A stretch of DNA of 64,000 nucleotides from Streptomyces sp. Je 1-369 (GTDB lineage Bacteria; Actinomycetota; Actinomycetes; Streptomycetales; Streptomycetaceae), in assembly GCF_026810505.1 (NCBI RefSeq), contig NZ_CP101750.1:1641448-1705447 (forward strand), in the 5' to 3' direction. A model generated the notes under the pieces. That model was not told the DNA's origin, did not search any database, and saw only the letters and a program-made list of their open reading frames with translations. Shown one piece after another: positions 26,271 to 53,964 of the stretch. Positions within the stretch are counted from its first letter, which is position 1; each line of letters opens with the position of its first letter. The position numbers and the translations under genes were made by a program.

Positions 26271-26342
26271 TGGGCGATACTGGGTTCGAACCAGTGACCT
26301 CTTCGGTGTGAACGAAGCGCTCTCCCACTGAGCTAATCGCCC
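26271..26342 (-). tRNA. tRNA-Val (anticodon CAC), copy 1
   Basis: A 72-base cloverleaf without encoded CCA. The acceptor stem GGGCGAT pairs with ATCGCCC, and the T arm carries GGTTCGAACC. The anticodon loop TTCACAC on stem CTTCG/CGAAG gives anticodon CAC for GUG codons. The sequence is identical to the copy at 29437-29508. Confidence 0.96.
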
Positions 26343-29436: not shown

Positions 29437-29508
29437 TGGGCGATACTGGGTTCGAACCAGTGACCTCTTCGGTGTGAACGAAGCGCTCTCCCACTGAGCT
29501 AATCGCCC
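29437..29508 (-). tRNA. tRNA-Val (anticodon CAC), copy 2
   Basis: A 72-base gene identical in sequence to the copy at 26271-26342, with anticodon CAC and the same orientation. CCA is not encoded. Confidence 0.96.
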
Positions 29509-35999: not shown

Positions 36000-36072
36000 G
36001 CGGACGTAGCTCAGTTGGTAGAGCGCAACCTTGCCAAGGTTGAGGTCGCCAGTTCGAACCTGGTCGTCCGCT
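36000..36072 (+). tRNA. tRNA-Gly (anticodon GCC)
   Basis: A 73-base cloverleaf with acceptor stem GCGGACG/CGTCCGC and U discriminator. The anticodon loop TTGCCAA on stem CAACC/GGTTG gives GCC, reading GGC/GGU. It is the first gene of a five-tRNA run. CCA is not encoded. Confidence 0.96.
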
Positions 36073-36112
36073 CGCAGGAAAGTGGGGGATCTTCCCGAAC
36101 CCCCATACTCCT

Positions 36113-36183
36113 GGTGGAGTGGCCGAGAGGCGAGGCAACGGCCTGCAAAGCCGTCTACACGGGTTCAAATCCCGTCTCCACCT
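36113..36183 (+). tRNA. tRNA-Cys (anticodon GCA)
   Basis: A 71-base cloverleaf with acceptor GGTGGAG/CTCCACC and U73, as expected for cysteine tRNA. The anticodon loop CTGCAAA on stem ACGGC/GCCGT gives GCA. The T arm reads GGGTTCAAATCCC. Confidence 0.96.
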
Positions 36184-36187
36184 CCAA

Positions 36188-36259
36188 GGACGATTAGCTC
36201 AGCGGGAGAGCGCTTCCCTGACACGGAAGAGGTCACTGGTTCAATCCCAGTATCGTCCA
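36188..36259 (+). tRNA. tRNA-Val (anticodon GAC), copy 1
   Basis: A 72-base gene with acceptor stem GGACGAT/ATCGTCC and anticodon loop CTGACAC giving GAC. It starts only four bases after tRNA-Cys. Its acceptor stem differs from the two following copies. Confidence 0.95.
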
Positions 36260-36298
36260 CTGGATCTTCGAGAAGATCATCTTCATGAAGGTCGTCCC

Positions 36299-36370
36299 GC
36301 GCGATTAGCTCAGCGGGAGAGCGCTTCCCTGACACGGAAGAGGTCACTGGTTCAATCCCAGTATCGCGCA
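36299..36370 (+). tRNA. tRNA-Val (anticodon GAC), copy 2
   Basis: A 72-base gene with acceptor stem GCGCGAT/ATCGCGC; the body is identical to copy 1 and the whole is identical to copy 3. Confidence 0.95.
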
Positions 36371-36399
36371 CGCAGTACGCAGCACACGCAGGTTCACCT

Positions 36400-36471
36400 G
36401 CGCGATTAGCTCAGCGGGAGAGCGCTTCCCTGACACGGAAGAGGTCACTGGTTCAATCCCAGTATCGCGCA
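36400..36471 (+). tRNA. tRNA-Val (anticodon GAC), copy 3
   Basis: A 72-base gene identical to copy 2, 29 bases further on, and the last tRNA of the cluster. Confidence 0.95.
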
Positions 36472-49359: not shown

Positions 49360-50175
49360 TCAGGCCGCCTCGACGGGCAGGACGGATCCCTTGTACTTGT
49401 CCTCGATGAACTTCTTCACCTCGGGTGAGCGGAGCAGTTTCGCCAGCTTGCGCACCCGCGGGTCGTCCTTGTCGCCCTTCTGGACGGCGAGGACGTTGTT
49501 GTAGGGATTGCCCTTCGACGACTCCAGGAGGATGGCGTCCTCCTTGGGGCTGAGGTCGGCGTCGAGCGCGTAGTTGTTGTTGATGACCGCCGCGTCGAGG
49601 TCGTCGAGCGAGCGCGGCAGCTGCGCCGGTTCGAGCGCCTTGACGGTGAGCTTCTTCGGGTTGGACGTGATGTCCTGGGGCGTCGCGGTGCCGCCGACGC
49701 CCTTCTTGAGCCCGATGAGGCCCTTGGAGGCGAGCAGCTGGAGCGCCCGTCCCTCGTTGGTCGTGTCGTTCGGGACGCCGACGGTCGCTCCCGCGGGGAG
49801 CTTCGCGATGTCCTTGATCTTGTGCGAGTACACGCCCATGGGGGGCAGGTACACCTCGGTGACCGGCACGAGGTCCGTCTTCTTGGACTTGTTGAAGTCC
49901 TCGAGGTACGGGGTGTGCTGGTACAGGTTGGCGTCGAGGGACCCCTCTTGGAGCGCGGTGTTCGGCGTGACGTAGTCCGTGAACTCCGTGATCCTGAGGT
50001 CGAGTCCTTCCTTCTTCGCCAGGTTCTGCTGGATGTACGTGAGGACCTCGCCGGCCGGGGTCGGCGTGGCGCCGACCACGAGCGTGCTGTCGCTCCGGTC
50101 GTCCGCGCCGCACGCGGTGAGGCCGAGCGCGAGGGCCAGGGTCCCCGCCGCGGCGGCGATGGCGGACGTACGCAC
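49360..50175 (-). CDS. metQ: MetQ-like methionine-binding lipoprotein, copy B
   Basis: A 271-residue NlpA-family solute-binding lipoprotein with lipobox LTAC (Cys22), then LVVGATPTPAGEVLTYIQ, ITEFTDYVTPNTALQEGSLDANLYQH and VPNDTTNEGRALQLL. It should capture methionine or a related amino acid outside the membrane for the MetNI transporter. The GTG start lies two bases after the stop of the other metQ copy. It is closely related to that copy, so this is a tandem duplication. Confidence 0.9.
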   Translation of the reverse strand: MRTSAIAAAAGTLALALGLTACGADDRSDSTLVVGATPTPAGEVLTYIQQNLAKKEGLDLRITEFTDYVTPNTALQEGSLDANLYQHTPYLEDFNKSKKTDLVPVTEVYLPPMGVYSHKIKDIAKLPAGATVGVPNDTTNEGRALQLLASKGLIGLKKGVGGTATPQDITSNPKKLTVKALEPAQLPRSLDDLDAAVINNNYALDADLSPKEDAILLESSKGNPYNNVLAVQKGDKDDPRVRKLAKLLRSPEVKKFIEDKYKGSVLPVEAA

Positions 50176-50177
50176 GG

Positions 50178-51017
50178 TCAGAACGCCGCGACGACGGCGC
50201 CGTCGTACTTCTCGTCGATGAACTTCTTGACCTCGGGCGAGGTGAGGAGCTTGGCGAGCTTCTTCACGCGCGGGTCGTTCTCGTCGCCCTTCTTCACGGC
50301 GAGGAAGTTGCCGTAGGGGTTGCCCTTGGCGGGCTCGGCGACGATGGCGTCCTTGGCGGGGCTGAGGGCGGGCTTGGCCTCCAGCGCGTAGTTGCCGTTG
50401 ATCACCGCGGCGTCGACATCGCTCAGGGTGCGGGGCACCGTGGGGGCTTCGAGCTCCTTGAACTGGATGTTCTTGGGGTTCTTGGCGATGTCCTTGGGGG
50501 TGGCCTCGTAGCCCACGCCCTTCTTGAGCTCGATGATGCCGTTGTCCGCGAGGAGCTTGAGCGCGCGGGCCTCGTTGGTGGTGTCGTTCGGAATGGCGAT
50601 GGTGGCGCCGTTCTTCAGCTCACCGAGCTTCTTGACCTTGTTCGAGTAGACGCCGAGCGGCTCCAGGTGAACCGTGGCTCCCGGGACGGGCACGATGTCG
50701 GTGCCGCGCTTCTTGTTGAAGTCGTCCAGGTACGGCTTGTGCTGGAAGTAGTTGGCGAAGACCTCGCCCTGCTCCACGGCCGTGTTCGGCGTGATGTAGT
50801 CGGTGAATTCCTTCACCTCGAGGTCGAGACCGGCCTTCTTGGCGAGGTTCTTCTGGACGTAGTCCAGGATCTCGCCCTGCGGCATCGGCGTCGCGGCGAC
50901 GATGAGCTTGCCGTCCTTGTCGGCGGCGGAGCCCTTGTCGGAGCCGCAGGCGGTGAGCCCGAGGGTGAGGGCTCCGGCGGCGAGGACAGCGGTGGTGATC
51001 TTGGCGGTGTTACGCAC
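50178..51017 (-). CDS. metQ: MetQ-like methionine-binding lipoprotein, copy A
   Basis: A 279-residue lipoprotein with lipobox LTAC (Cys24), LIVAATPMPQGEILDYVQ, VKEFTDYITPNTAVEQGEVFANYFQH and IPNDTTNEARALKLL. It is first of two paralogous binding proteins. The start is GTG with GAAAGG 8 bases upstream, 69 bases after the metI stop. It has a longer charged C-terminal part than most NlpA proteins and is expected to be anchored on the outer face of the membrane. Confidence 0.92.
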   Translation of the reverse strand: MRNTAKITTAVLAAGALTLGLTACGSDKGSAADKDGKLIVAATPMPQGEILDYVQKNLAKKAGLDLEVKEFTDYITPNTAVEQGEVFANYFQHKPYLDDFNKKRGTDIVPVPGATVHLEPLGVYSNKVKKLGELKNGATIAIPNDTTNEARALKLLADNGIIELKKGVGYEATPKDIAKNPKNIQFKELEAPTVPRTLSDVDAAVINGNYALEAKPALSPAKDAIVAEPAKGNPYGNFLAVKKGDENDPRVKKLAKLLTSPEVKKFIDEKYDGAVVAAF

Positions 51018-51086: not shown

Positions 51087-51833
51087 TCAGCCGGTCTTGG
51101 TGCCCGATTCGGCGGCGGCGGTGCCGGGCAGTACGCCCCGCAGCGGCCGGAACAGCAGCAGCGGGCCCGAGCCGCCGCCGCGCTTGTGCAGGCGGCGGGC
51201 CGCGTAGTCGCCGATGAACTGGATGATCGAGATGACCACGGCGAGGACCGCCACGGTGATCCACATCAGCTCGGTCTCGAAGCGCTGGTAGCCGTAGCGC
51301 AGGGCGAGGTCGCCGAGGCCGCCGCCGCCGACCGTGCCCGCCATGGCGGAGTAGCCGATGAGCGCGACGATGGTGGTGGTGGCGCCCGAGATCAGCGAGG
51401 GCAGCGACTCGGGGACGAGGACCTTGCGTACGACGGTCCAGGTGGAGCCGCCCATCGACTGCACGGCCTCGACGAGTCCGCCGTCGACCTCACGGATGGA
51501 GGTCTCGACCAGCCGCGCGAAGAACGGGATGGCGCCGACGGCGAGCGGCACGAGGGCGGCCTCGCGGCCGATCGTGGTGCCGGTGACCCAGCGCGTGAAG
51601 CCCATCAGGGCGACCATCAGGATGATGAAGGGCATCGAGCGGGCGATGTTCACGATCTGCCCGATGACCTTGTTGAGGAAGGCGTTCTGCAGCAGTCCGC
51701 CGCGCTCGCTGAGGACGAGCAGCACGCCGAGCGGCAGCCCGGCGACGACGGCTATCAGCGTCGACCAGCCCACCATGTAGAGGGTGTCCCAACAGGCCTG
51801 CTCCAGCAGGGGCTGCATCTCCGACCAGGTCAC
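51087..51833 (-). CDS. metI: MetI, methionine ABC transporter permease
   Basis: A 248-residue permease with five to six membrane helices and the EAA-type loop EAVQSMGGSTWTVVRKVLVPESLPSLISG, which docks on the ATPase. MGFTRWVTGTTIGREAALVPL is typical of MetI. The GTG overlaps the metN stop by four bases (GTGA), giving coupled translation. About 30 residues after the last helix are a Gly/Arg-rich cytoplasmic tail. Confidence 0.94.
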   Translation of the reverse strand: MTWSEMQPLLEQACWDTLYMVGWSTLIAVVAGLPLGVLLVLSERGGLLQNAFLNKVIGQIVNIARSMPFIILMVALMGFTRWVTGTTIGREAALVPLAVGAIPFFARLVETSIREVDGGLVEAVQSMGGSTWTVVRKVLVPESLPSLISGATTTIVALIGYSAMAGTVGGGGLGDLALRYGYQRFETELMWITVAVLAVVISIIQFIGDYAARRLHKRGGGSGPLLLFRPLRGVLPGTAAAESGTKTG

Positions 51834-52888
51834 TTGGCACCTTCCTTGATCAGCAGCGTCGCGTCCTTCGGCGTGGGTGCGGCGTCTTCGCCCGCGATGT
51901 CGACCTGGAGGCCCTGCTCGCGCAGGAAGCCGATGGGGACGACGTTCTCCTCGAAGCGGCCCGGCAGCTCGATGCGCATGCGGCCGACCTGCTTGCCCGC
52001 GACGGTGTCCATCGCGGCGCCGAGGATCGAGATGTCGATGTTGTACGTGCGCGACAGCTGGGAGATGACCGGCTGGGTCGCGGCCTCCCCGTGGAAGGTC
52101 ACGTCGACGACGGTGCGGTCGTCGCCGGTGGCTTCGCCGCTGACCGGGAAGAGCGCGGCGGCGAGCTCGGAGCCGGGGGTGGCGAGCAGCTCGCTGACGG
52201 TGCCGGACTCGATGATCTGTCCGCGCTCCATGAGGGCGGCGGAGTCGCAGACGCTCTTGACGACGTCCATCTCGTGCGTGATGAGCAGGACGGTCAGGCC
52301 GAGCTGCTGGTTGAGGTCGCGCAGCAGCTGGAGGATGGAGCGGGTGGTCTCGGGGTCGAGGGCGCTGGTCGCCTCGTCGGAGAGGAGCACCTTCGGGTCG
52401 CCGGCCAGGGCGCGGGCGATGCCGACGCGCTGCTTCTGGCCGCCGGAGAGCTGCGCCGGGTAGGACTTCGCCTTGTCGGCGAGGCCGACCAGGTCGAGGA
52501 GTTCGCGGGCCTTGCGGGAGCGTTCCTGGCCGGAGAGGCCGAGGATCTCCAGGGGCAGCTCGACGTTGTCCTGCACGGTGCGCGAGGACAGCAGGTTGAA
52601 GTGCTGGAAGACCATGCCGATGCGGTTGCGGGCCCGGCGCAGTTCCTTGCCGGCGCGGGGGCCGCGGCCCGCCAGGGCGGTGAGGTCCTGGCCGGCGACG
52701 GTCACGGTGCCGGAGGTGGGGCGCTCCAGGAGGTTGACGCAGCGGATCAGGGAGGACTTGCCGGCGCCGGACTGGCCGATGACGCCGTACACCTCGCCCT
52801 CGCGGACGTGCAGGTCGACTCCGTCGAGGGCGGTTACTTCACGACCGCGTGAGCGGTAGACCTTGGTGAGGCCGGAAGTGGTGATCAC
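51830..52888 (-). CDS. metN: MetN, methionine ABC transporter ATPase
   Basis: A 352-residue ABC ATPase with Walker A GQSGAGKSS (38-46), signature LSGGQKQRV (147-155) and Walker B LLSDEATSALD (168-178). A C-terminal NIL domain (about 255-345) binds methionine and shuts down transport in known MetN proteins. The GTG start has GGAAAT upstream. It is first of the metN-metI-metQ-metQ operon; the 419-base region upstream contains a candidate leader peptide. Confidence 0.95.
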   Translation of the reverse strand: MITTSGLTKVYRSRGREVTALDGVDLHVREGEVYGVIGQSGAGKSSLIRCVNLLERPTSGTVTVAGQDLTALAGRGPRAGKELRRARNRIGMVFQHFNLLSSRTVQDNVELPLEILGLSGQERSRKARELLDLVGLADKAKSYPAQLSGGQKQRVGIARALAGDPKVLLSDEATSALDPETTRSILQLLRDLNQQLGLTVLLITHEMDVVKSVCDSAALMERGQIIESGTVSELLATPGSELAAALFPVSGEATGDDRTVVDVTFHGEAATQPVISQLSRTYNIDISILGAAMDTVAGKQVGRMRIELPGRFEENVVPIGFLREQGLQVDIAGEDAAPTPKDATLLIKEGAK

Positions 52889-53023
52889 AGGATTTCCGTC
52901 ACTGTCGAGTGCGCGGCGCGGGGTGGCCGGGCACGGGGCATTCGTTCGGAACGCGGCACGGTTCTCGCGGTGGTGGTGCGGTGGAACCGGAGGACGTGTG
53001 CGCGGGGCGGGCTCGCTTCCTAC

Positions 53024-53037
53024 GTCGACTTGTCGAC
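53024..53037. repeat. Double GTCGAC site in the metN leader
   Basis: GTCGAC-TT-GTCGAC lies about 135 bases before the metN start, inside the untranslated leader. It could pair with itself in RNA or be a protein site; no function is known. Confidence 0.4.
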
Positions 53038-53125
53038 TCCGTTGAGTACGACGGTTGCGTCGGTCAGGAGCGCGGCACAGCGGCTTCGCTTCGGGGCGCG
53101 AGGCTCTTCAGTGGTGCGGGGGCCC

Positions 53126-53212
53126 TCAGAAGGCGCACATTCGACACATACAACGAGCACCGGGCGTCGTGATCGCCTCGGTCGCAGGGGTGCGGCTGCT
53201 CGTCGTGGTCAT
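53126..53212 (-). CDS. Candidate Cys/Met-rich leader peptide of the metNIQQ operon
   Basis: A 28-codon frame starts MTTTSSRTPA and ends RCMCRMCAF followed by TGA, about 240 bases before metN and on the same strand. Three Cys and two Met codons in six positions right before the stop are very improbable by chance and resemble ribosome-stalling leader peptides that sense amino acids. A shorter version could start at the internal ATG (MCRMCAF). There is no clear Shine-Dalgarno site; a start near the mRNA 5' end is possible. The role is inferred from composition and position. Confidence 0.5.
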   Translation of the reverse strand: MTTTSSRTPATEAITTPGARCMCRMCAF

Positions 53213-53247
53213 GGGCCCAAGTAAAACACGCGTGAGGTCGCTGTCCA

Positions 53248-53278
53248 CCACCGCTGTCCGGTATACGGACAGCGGTGG
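53248..53278 (-). terminator. Terminator of the HAD gene
   Basis: A perfect 13-bp stem (CCACCGCTGTCCG with its complement) and a GTATA loop start about 30 bases after the HAD gene stop codon, upstream of the metN leader. Confidence 0.8.
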
Positions 53279-53307
53279 GACGGCCGCGGACGCCGGTGAC
53301 GGGCGGC

Positions 53308-53964
53308 TCAGTCGGCGAGGACGATCTCCACGCCGCCATCCGTGACCTGCGCGGACACGGCGGAGAGGTCCTTGACGACGACGTCGGCGAGGTCGGCGGG
53401 GAGCTCGGACGCCTGGTGGGTTGTGGTCAACGCCACGGTCTTCATGCCGGCGGCCCGGCCTGCCTGCAATCCCGCGGGGGCGTCCTCGAAGACGACGCAG
53501 CGGGCGGGGTCGACGCCGAGCTTGTCGGCGGCGAGGAGGAAGGGCTCCGGGTCGGGCTTGCCGCGCGTGATGTCGTCGGCGGCGATGACGAGGCCGGGGC
53601 GCAGGCCGACCTCGGCGAGCCGGGCCTCGCCCAGGGCGCGGGTCGCGGAGGTCACCACGGCCCAGCGCTCGGCGGGCAGGGACTCCAGGAGCTCGCGGGT
53701 GCCGGGCAGCAGGACGACACCGCCCGCGACGTCGGAGACCTCGAGCTCCTCGATGCGGGCGACGGCCTCGGCGATCTTCTCCGGAGGCAGCAGGTCGGCG
53801 GCGATCTCGGCGGCGGGGCGCCCGTGCAGCTCGACCTCGGCGAACTCCTCGGCGGTGATCCCGTACTCCTGCGCCCACCGCGACCAGCAGCGGTACACCG
53901 ACTCCATGGAGGAGACGAGGGTGCCGTCGTTGTCGAACAGGAGCGCGTCAGCATGGATCTTCAT
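53308..53964 (-). CDS. HAD-superfamily phosphatase
   Basis: A 218-residue beta-phosphoglucomutase/GS1-like HAD hydrolase: motif I LLFDNDGTL (Asp11, Asp13), motif II VVTSAT, motif III Lys in RGKPDPEPFL, and motif IV VFEDAPAGLQAG. The cap domain (about 18-85) is of the small helical type. It is likely a sugar-phosphate or nucleotide phosphatase. The ATG at 53964 is taken as start; another ATG is two codons upstream and neither has a strong ribosome site. Confidence 0.9.
   Translation of the reverse strand: MKIHADALLFDNDGTLVSSMESVYRCWSRWAQEYGITAEEFAEVELHGRPAAEIAADLLPPEKIAEAVARIEELEVSDVAGGVVLLPGTRELLESLPAERWAVVTSATRALGEARLAEVGLRPGLVIAADDITRGKPDPEPFLLAADKLGVDPARCVVFEDAPAGLQAGRAAGMKTVALTTTHQASELPADLADVVVKDLSAVSAQVTDGGVEIVLAD

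Follow-up and report, generated by a model that had tools for sequence, protein, structure and literature searches.

A putative cysteine- and methionine-sensing leader peptide with an overlapping predicted RNA fold upstream of metNIQQ in Streptomyces

Introduction

In mycobacteria, leaderless ORFs containing Cys codons are Cys-responsive attenuators (Canestrari 2020, as cited in PMC9031893 and PMC13236596), and Cys leader peptides are given for mycobacteria, Propionibacterium, and Bifidobacterium in PMC1262725. According to the available text of PMC1262725, there is no conserved RNA structure upstream of the methionine operons in its genomes and, in the mutations cited there for the LEU element, the Leu codons did not matter. 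Within Streptomyces, Table 4 of PMC8079986 gives metL (SLIV_29928) of S. lividans TK24, MSTTSDRTPATEATTTPGARCMCRRMCAF followed by a stop codon, upstream of metNIQ. In the available text of that paper, metL has a leaderless start from RNA-seq, termination is unclear with no typical Rho-independent terminator, and the peptide is described as holding several methionines and threonines.

The window analysed here is a stretch of 64,000 nucleotides from Streptomyces sp. Je 1-369 (contig NZ_CP101750.1, positions 1,641,448 to 1,705,447). An initial annotation had placed a putative Cys/Met-sensing leader peptide upstream of metNIQQ in this window and had taken the locus to be undescribed, which was wrong in view of the S. 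lividans entry. Among the matches listed, no further published description tied to the metL leader was found (most of the subscription literature lies outside this scope).

Results

The leader ORF and its operon

The leader ORF, its tail, and the genes that follow it are:

53126..53212, minus strand: leader peptide ORF (metL), MTTTSSRTPATEAITTPGARCMCRMCAF and stop, from translation, conservation in relatives, and selection on the frame
53135..53152, minus strand: Cys-Met-Cys-Arg-Met-Cys, codons 21-26, of which CGA-ATG-TGC is the most widely kept part
53118..53125, minus strand: GGGCCCCC, directly 3′ of the metL stop
51830..52888, minus strand: metN, importer ATPase (best NCBIfam match TIGR02314, under the cut-off)
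51087..51833, minus strand: metI, permease (NF008049, above the curated cut-off, 212.9 against 212)
50178..51017, minus strand: metQ-type lipoprotein gene, copy 1 (best match MetQ/NlpA families, under the cut-off)
49360..50175, minus strand: metQ-type lipoprotein gene, copy 2 (best match MetQ/NlpA families, under the cut-off)

Translation of 53126-53212 on the operon strand bears out the short frame that had been proposed: 28 codons, read from 53212 to 53126, with the C-terminal end RCMCRMCAF. The three Cys and two Met codons said to lie within six positions are codons 21-26, and the leader of about 240 bases claimed ahead of metN measures 237 bases, from the stop ending at 53126 to the metN GTG at 52888. 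None of the three Cys codons within these six are adjacent in Je 1-369, and a contiguous Cys run is absent; adjacent Cys codons are present in a few relatives, for example L138 and L203. The GGGCCCCC after the stop leads into GGGCC or GGGCCC in 134 of 140 leaders of the genus, the remaining six having differences of a few bases. A search of the metL peptide against NCBIfam gave zero matches. The bare motif R-M-C-x-x-stop is not rare, with six matches genome-wide and seven for the reversed control.

On the best NCBIfam matches, the gene order metN-metI-metQ-metQ is that of a putative methionine importer; the substrate is given as putative because MetN and both MetQ proteins score below the NCBIfam cut-offs and MetI alone passes. 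The two metQ-type lipoprotein genes form a tandem pair after metI (49360-51017), and the two binding proteins have perhaps been retained for different sulfur compounds. For the gene upstream of metL on the same strand, the best NCBIfam match is to HAD-family phosphatases. Seven tRNA matches are also present in the window, at 36000-36471 on the plus strand, where five are clustered in 472 bases, and at 26271-26342 and 29437-29508 on the minus strand.

Conservation of the tail codons and of the frame

A 161-base leader was matched in 141 of 150 same-genus genomes, and the ORF is present in 140 of the 141. The 141st match (L140) is a 22-base, promoter-only match and was rejected as an instance of the element, as were the secondary BLAST matches L141-L148 on inspection; L140-L148 were dropped before the count of 140. 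The presence of metL in 140 of 150 same-genus genomes is a spread newly described here. Among the matches listed, all five named Streptomyces have the same kind of ORF, and it was not found in Actinoplanes L264 or in L265, L333, and L338. Two leaders, L090 and L101, encode exactly the published S. lividans peptide. metL adjoins metN in 137 of the 140 leaders, those with a recognised metN start. No conserved ORF overlapping the metN start was found in the genus; by eye, the reading frames there differ between species.

All 140 ORFs start with ATG. Their lengths are 28 codons (109 ORFs), 29 (6), 30 (9), 31 (5), 32 (6), 33 (2), 36 (1), and 37 (2). In the 108 unique sequences among the 109 28-codon leaders, the tail residues are kept in the order M25 (105), C23 (103), C21 (98), M22 (91), and C26 (76). 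Conservation of the Cys and Met codons upstream of metN in other Streptomyces, proposed as a check on the initial annotation, therefore holds for most of the tail, as at M25, but less so for C26, which is Arg in 30 of the 108; C21 is Arg in 10, and Met22 is replaced by Leu, Arg, Thr, or another residue in 17.

The distance from the start codon to CGAATG, or its variant, was compared across 160 leaders, being the 140 of the genus and 20 divergent leaders, with L188, L205, L206, L207, and L210 left out. Its 11 different values range from 66 to 99, and each is divisible by three. No frame is seen in the distance from the stop to the hairpin loop described below (remainders 0/1/2 of 34/89/26, 149 leaders), nor in that from the stop to metN (51/39/47, 137 leaders). 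The extra codons of the 31 longer ORFs in the genus sit mostly between the Cys and the R-M-C codons. Since the leaders are related, there are fewer independent events than leaders, but the changes cover a minimum of nine distinct lengths or places. These distances indicate that the metL frame is under selection and, as none of the length changes seen breaks the frame, translation of metL is very likely. A chance frame is ruled out by this and by the conservation across the genus.

A predicted RNA fold within the ORF

T- or A-ending codons are unusual in GC-rich genomes. In the 108 unique 28-codon leaders, synonymous sites are near-fixed at such codons, with GGT in 106, GCT in 104, CGA in 105, and TGT at codon 23 in 102, whereas the variable codons (6, 8, 9, 14, and 15) alter the amino acid. 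This pattern points to RNA rather than protein constraint. Because much of the conservation is of the RNA, codon conservation alone is no proof of amino-acid sensing within the genus. The predicted structures are:

53151..53205, minus strand: three-way-junction RNA inside the ORF, from the fold and from pair counts with controls
53198-53205 with 53151-53158, minus strand: P1 helix, predicted fold, CGACGAGC with GCUCGUUG
53183-53194, minus strand: P2 helix, predicted fold, CGCA/UGCG
53159-53182, minus strand: P3 helix with a bulged A, predicted fold, ACCG-A-GGCG/CGCC-CGGU
53085..53102, minus strand: hairpin CTCGC-GCCCCGAA-GCGAA with a near-invariant loop

Pair counts were made in three sets of leaders and ignore phylogeny. 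The first set, of 94, was drawn from 130 distinct leaders by removing near-identical ones; 97.4% of its cells pair, four of 20 pairs change on both sides, and there are 10 two-sided cells, compared to 0.8 in shuffles. The other two sets are of chosen leaders. When 59 leaders were fitted to the model, nine of 20 pairs were two-sided (32 cells, 7.4 in shuffles), and when 48 were aligned without structure, six of 20 were (22 cells, 4.9 in shuffles). Some results tell against the fold. As a control, the partners were slid by -2 columns, which gave about as many two-sided pairs (4, 8, and 7 in the three sets), while the two-sided cells and the covariation score fell below those of the native pairing.

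P1 is the weakest helix. In the 48-leader set, 85% of the cells in its outer six pairs are paired, with 15 and 12 of the 48 rows unpaired at two positions, and the last P2 pair is unpaired in 16. Alone, RNAalifold recovered P2 and P3, giving the P1 strands a different, mixed pairing. In L185 and L197, from other genera, a P1 G-C pair has changed to A-U on both sides, and in L104 and L108 the helix is kept in a shifted register (by eye; L108 is also in the strand swaps). In these swaps of the 5′ strand and the tail strand between species, the native combination has a mean rank of 0.24, where about 0.5 is expected (23 leaders, KS p about 1e-4). For 14 ORFs taken singly, the fold z-scores are weak, at -1.99 to +0.66 (a fifteenth, L235, was excluded), and by themselves give no support for structure.

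The loop GCCCCGAA of the hairpin after the stop is present in 135 of 140 leaders, and 120 of these have five or more stem pairs; in Je 1-369 the outermost of the five stem positions is unpaired. On the predicted fold and its pair counts, metL in the Streptomyces-like family is a dual-use element, in which the ORF overlaps a three-way junction with compensatory changes and is then followed by a hairpin.

The near-fixed synonymous sites beside variable codons that alter the amino acid, together with two-sided changes in four to nine of the 20 pairs, above the level of shuffles, would also fit a riboswitch or protein-binding RNA, in which the junction is the sensor and the peptide incidental. This is unlikely. 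The frame is kept in 160 of 160 leaders, two other families (f3 and f19, below) have the Cys/Met tail without the junction sequence, and the loops of P2 and P3 vary among leaders, leaving no obvious ligand pocket. A known riboswitch was rejected, as there is no Rfam match at the gathering level and just three weak microRNA matches at E<=10. No second copy of the RNA was found in the Je 1-369 genome, where the next best match has an E value of 0.97 and was judged by eye to be coding.

Cysteine and methionine codons outside the genus

When genomes of the order were searched with a covariance model built on the junction, 270 of 293 gave a match, and three other genera of the family are among them; the sole match in L206 and a second match, L207, were judged false by eye, so 270 is an upper figure. 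Leaders were inspected from 22 of the 270 genomes, the weakest and most distant, and the downstream metN was translated in L205 only. L205, from another genus of the family, has upstream of metN the ORF MTTTTTCIPTGATPAGERRMCRRMRRMCCR and stop, with repeated R-R-M units; its predicted fold differs, and its 5′ end pairs with the last codons.

Without a leader match were 32 genomes, nine of the 150 in the genus and 23 of the 293 in the order. MetN was sought in 24 of them, and 18 have none at E<=1e-100. Of the six that do, L210 and L211 have a diverged ORF, that of L211 being read as ending RRMCAR, in L208 and L209 the sequence stops at metN or close to it and thus lacks the upstream region, and L212 and L213 belong to another family, f3. 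ORFs upstream of metN in f3 end MMCGMPMCRMCSC or MMCCRFACRMCGC, and TATAGT lies seven bases ahead of the ATG. By eye, the junction sequence was not found in the f3 leaders and, when the four f3 leaders are taken alone, the native strand pairs are no better than swaps (ranks 0.52, 0.20, 0.45, and 0.50).

A strict, exact tail pattern was present in 15 of 394 genomes of the class, 13 of these among 40 genomes of the genus and two in family f19. Both f19 matches adjoin metN on its upstream side and have CRCRMC tails and GAGGGCCCCC, and their hairpin loop is either identical to that of the genus or a single base away from it; GGGCCCCC is also present in the f19 loci L233 and L234. Of 28 loci examined, nine, from family f19 (L233, L234, L238, L239, L240, L241, L244, L245, and L250), have a second short ORF between the Cys/Met ORF and metN, for example MNCPADTLVLRRLSHLPFHPGTR and MIFVLHLLSHAPYPPGTC, each followed by a stop. 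The end of this ORF is conserved as L-S-H-x-P-[FY]-[HP]-P-G-x-x. The ORF resembles an additional leader or arrest peptide, and it was not found as such in the Streptomyces genus set.

In a survey anchored on metN, 63 genomes of the order and class gave 24 loci with metN at E<=1e-95. Of these, 14 have an ORF whose final 12 residues include three or more Cys+Met; the other 10 have no such ORF. Across 25 loci (the 24 plus L212), the mean of the maximum Cys+Met count is 3.52, compared to 1.08 in dinucleotide shuffles and 0.68 on the reverse strand. Cys alone gives 1.96 against 0.86 in shuffles and Met alone 1.56 against 0.38; the shuffle fraction is 0.03 or lower in 14 of the 25. The filter and the enrichment statistic were both chosen after the genus tail was known and the loci are related, so the p values (about 1e-6 for the sum) err on the optimistic side. 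The f3 and f19 sequences differ so strongly that the Cys/Met content is what they share. Tails rich in Cys and Met are thus found again ahead of metN in two other families of diverged sequence.

It is unlikely that metL is a Met-only, or Met/Thr, leader peptide with Cys codons that are by-products of the RNA constraint. Met/Thr is the published reading for S. lividans (available text of PMC8079986), the operon is by best match that of a Met importer, and the ORFs of the f19 loci L239-L241 and L244 have a Met-rich end, MGGMPSMR, with one or two Cys in the last 12 residues. However, the Cys enrichment outside the genus holds on its own, with as many as five Cys among the last 12 residues in f3; in both f3 and f19, Cys codons reappear amid changed sequence; and Met22 is replaceable, as noted above.

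The tails might instead form a sequence-specific arrest peptide, with R-M-C near the stop, responding to something besides Cys or Met charging. CGA-ATG-TGY is common to the families, and in 156 of 160 leaders two codons separate it from the stop. The remaining residues vary freely, however, and L239-L241, L244, and L245 end differently, making such a peptide very unlikely.

Promoter region and leader

The features before the ORF and in the remainder of the leader are:

53220..53225, minus strand: -10 box TTTACT, seven bases before the ATG, leaderless geometry, conserved motif
53255..53271, no strand: palindrome TGTCCGGTATACGGACA, about 50 bases before the ORF start, exact match, candidate regulator site
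52889..53084, minus strand: C-rich remainder of the leader, candidate Rho entry region from C and G counts

The -10 box is TTTACT in 137 of 140 leaders, TTTAAT in two, and TTAACT in one, with a spacing to the ATG of six bases in 70 leaders and seven in 70. The mean distance from -10 box to start in S. lividans is 6.3 bases (available text of PMC8079986). GTCC-N3-7-GGAC is present in 132 of the 140 leaders, its centre at a median of 50 bases 5′ of the ATG (5-95% range 49-52), and in 63 of 2800 mononucleotide shuffles. Given this near-fixed place, a DNA-binding regulator may act as well, and the palindrome may be its operator. The strict palindrome has two matches genome-wide, equal to the two of the reversed control, and thus no regulon was inferred. 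The sole other exact copy, L340 (C1:6229070-6229086), is 48 bases before an ORF that by eye resembles leuB; this may be chance.

A palindrome at a constant position and a -10 box that hardly varies would be expected if promoter or operator DNA were all that is conserved and the frame were untranslated. The conservation, however, extends through the ORF to the stop and follows both frame and base pairing; this explanation is largely refuted by the frame test and is scarcely credible.

Leaders without a recognised metN start (three of 140) were dropped from the C/G counts and metN distances, leaving 137. Between the hairpin and metN, C exceeds G in all 137 (0.46 C, 0.28 G), whereas upstream of the ORF this is so in 62 of 137 (0.35 C, 0.35 G); the first 60 bases of metN are C-rich too (0.38 C, 0.29 G). 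A search for an intrinsic terminator hairpin with a U-tract gave 0 terminator-like sites in 52860-53330. The C-rich leader and the lack of a U-tract terminator make Rho-dependent or translational attenuation likelier.

Discussion

From the sequence comparisons, the preferred reading of metL, with a probability of about 0.6, is a leader peptide ORF with a leaderless start ahead of metNIQQ, through which the charging of tRNA-Cys and tRNA-Met is reported. The leader peptide sensing Cys and Met that was first proposed is supported in that the tail is conserved in the genus, recurs in f3 and f19, and is enriched in Cys and in Met separately, but it is weakened by much of the conservation within the genus being that of RNA and by the 10 surveyed metN loci that have no such ORF.

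In the model inferred here, which takes in ribosome stalling, the sulfur signal, the sign of the response, and the type of output (Rho or translational), the mRNA would begin at the AUG of the ORF. With ample Cys and Met, the ribosome would run to the stop and leave, after which the 5′ part of the ORF would pair with bases in the tail codons and immediately ahead of them, forming P1. Counted from the 5′ end of the ORF, this helix has its first strand beginning seven bases in, and the second strand extends into the first Cys codon of the tail. Once P1 had formed, the C-rich leader would be open to Rho, or to structure hiding the metN start, and little transporter would be made. When Cys or Met is short, the ribosome would stall on the tail, holding P1 open and covering the GGGCC after the stop, and metNIQQ would be expressed.

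A more specific form of this model is put forward tentatively, as a possibility with the odds against it: the 87-base stretch may be dual-coded, both a leaderless ORF reading Cys and Met charging and a three-way junction, with P1 gating the 70S start on the AUG and reporting the stall on the tail. The pairing of 5′ end and tail may have been re-invented with other sequence in other families. If this is true, sulfur amino-acid import in these actinomycetes would be controlled by a peptide sensitive to two amino acids and by an RNA fold in the same bases, giving a directly testable rule for a transporter operon preceded by metL in 140 of the 150 genomes sampled in the genus. metL would be an example of a leaderless ORF and an RNA structure sharing one sequence. 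Codon conservation, the usual sign of a leader peptide, can mislead, and a simple frame test separates peptide selection from RNA constraint.

Comparison with described systems

The element resembles S. lividans metL in its place upstream of metNIQ, the same kind of peptide and tail, and the lack of a Rho-independent terminator. It differs in that the S. lividans metL was read as Met/Thr-dependent in one strain, the available text of PMC8079986 giving no role for Cys, no conservation across species, and no three-way junction. New relative to the published metL are thus the wider spread, the Cys side, and the RNA shape, of which no prior description was found in the available text of the papers cited.

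With the polycysteine ORFs and the Cys leaders of PMC1262725, as far as the available text describes them, metL shares a short ORF with Cys codons near the stop, a position before sulfur genes, and no obvious terminator; a leaderless start is also a feature of the mycobacterial polycysteine ORFs (via PMC9031893 and PMC13236596). The Cys codons of those ORFs and leaders, as described in these sources, are contiguous and upstream of cys genes, whereas those of metL alternate with Met and Arg, precede a putative Met importer, and lie in a conserved predicted RNA fold. Likewise, the ilvB1 attenuator of M. tuberculosis, another actinobacterium, has a uORF with regulatory codons near a hairpin but, according to the available text of PMC13236596, its leader has a terminator with a U-tract, and none was found for metL. 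The LEU element upstream of leuA in Actinobacteria, likened here by its description in the available text of PMC1262725, also has a short ORF with the relevant codons overlapping a conserved RNA fold, although that fold is a pseudoknot and the gene and amino acid are different.
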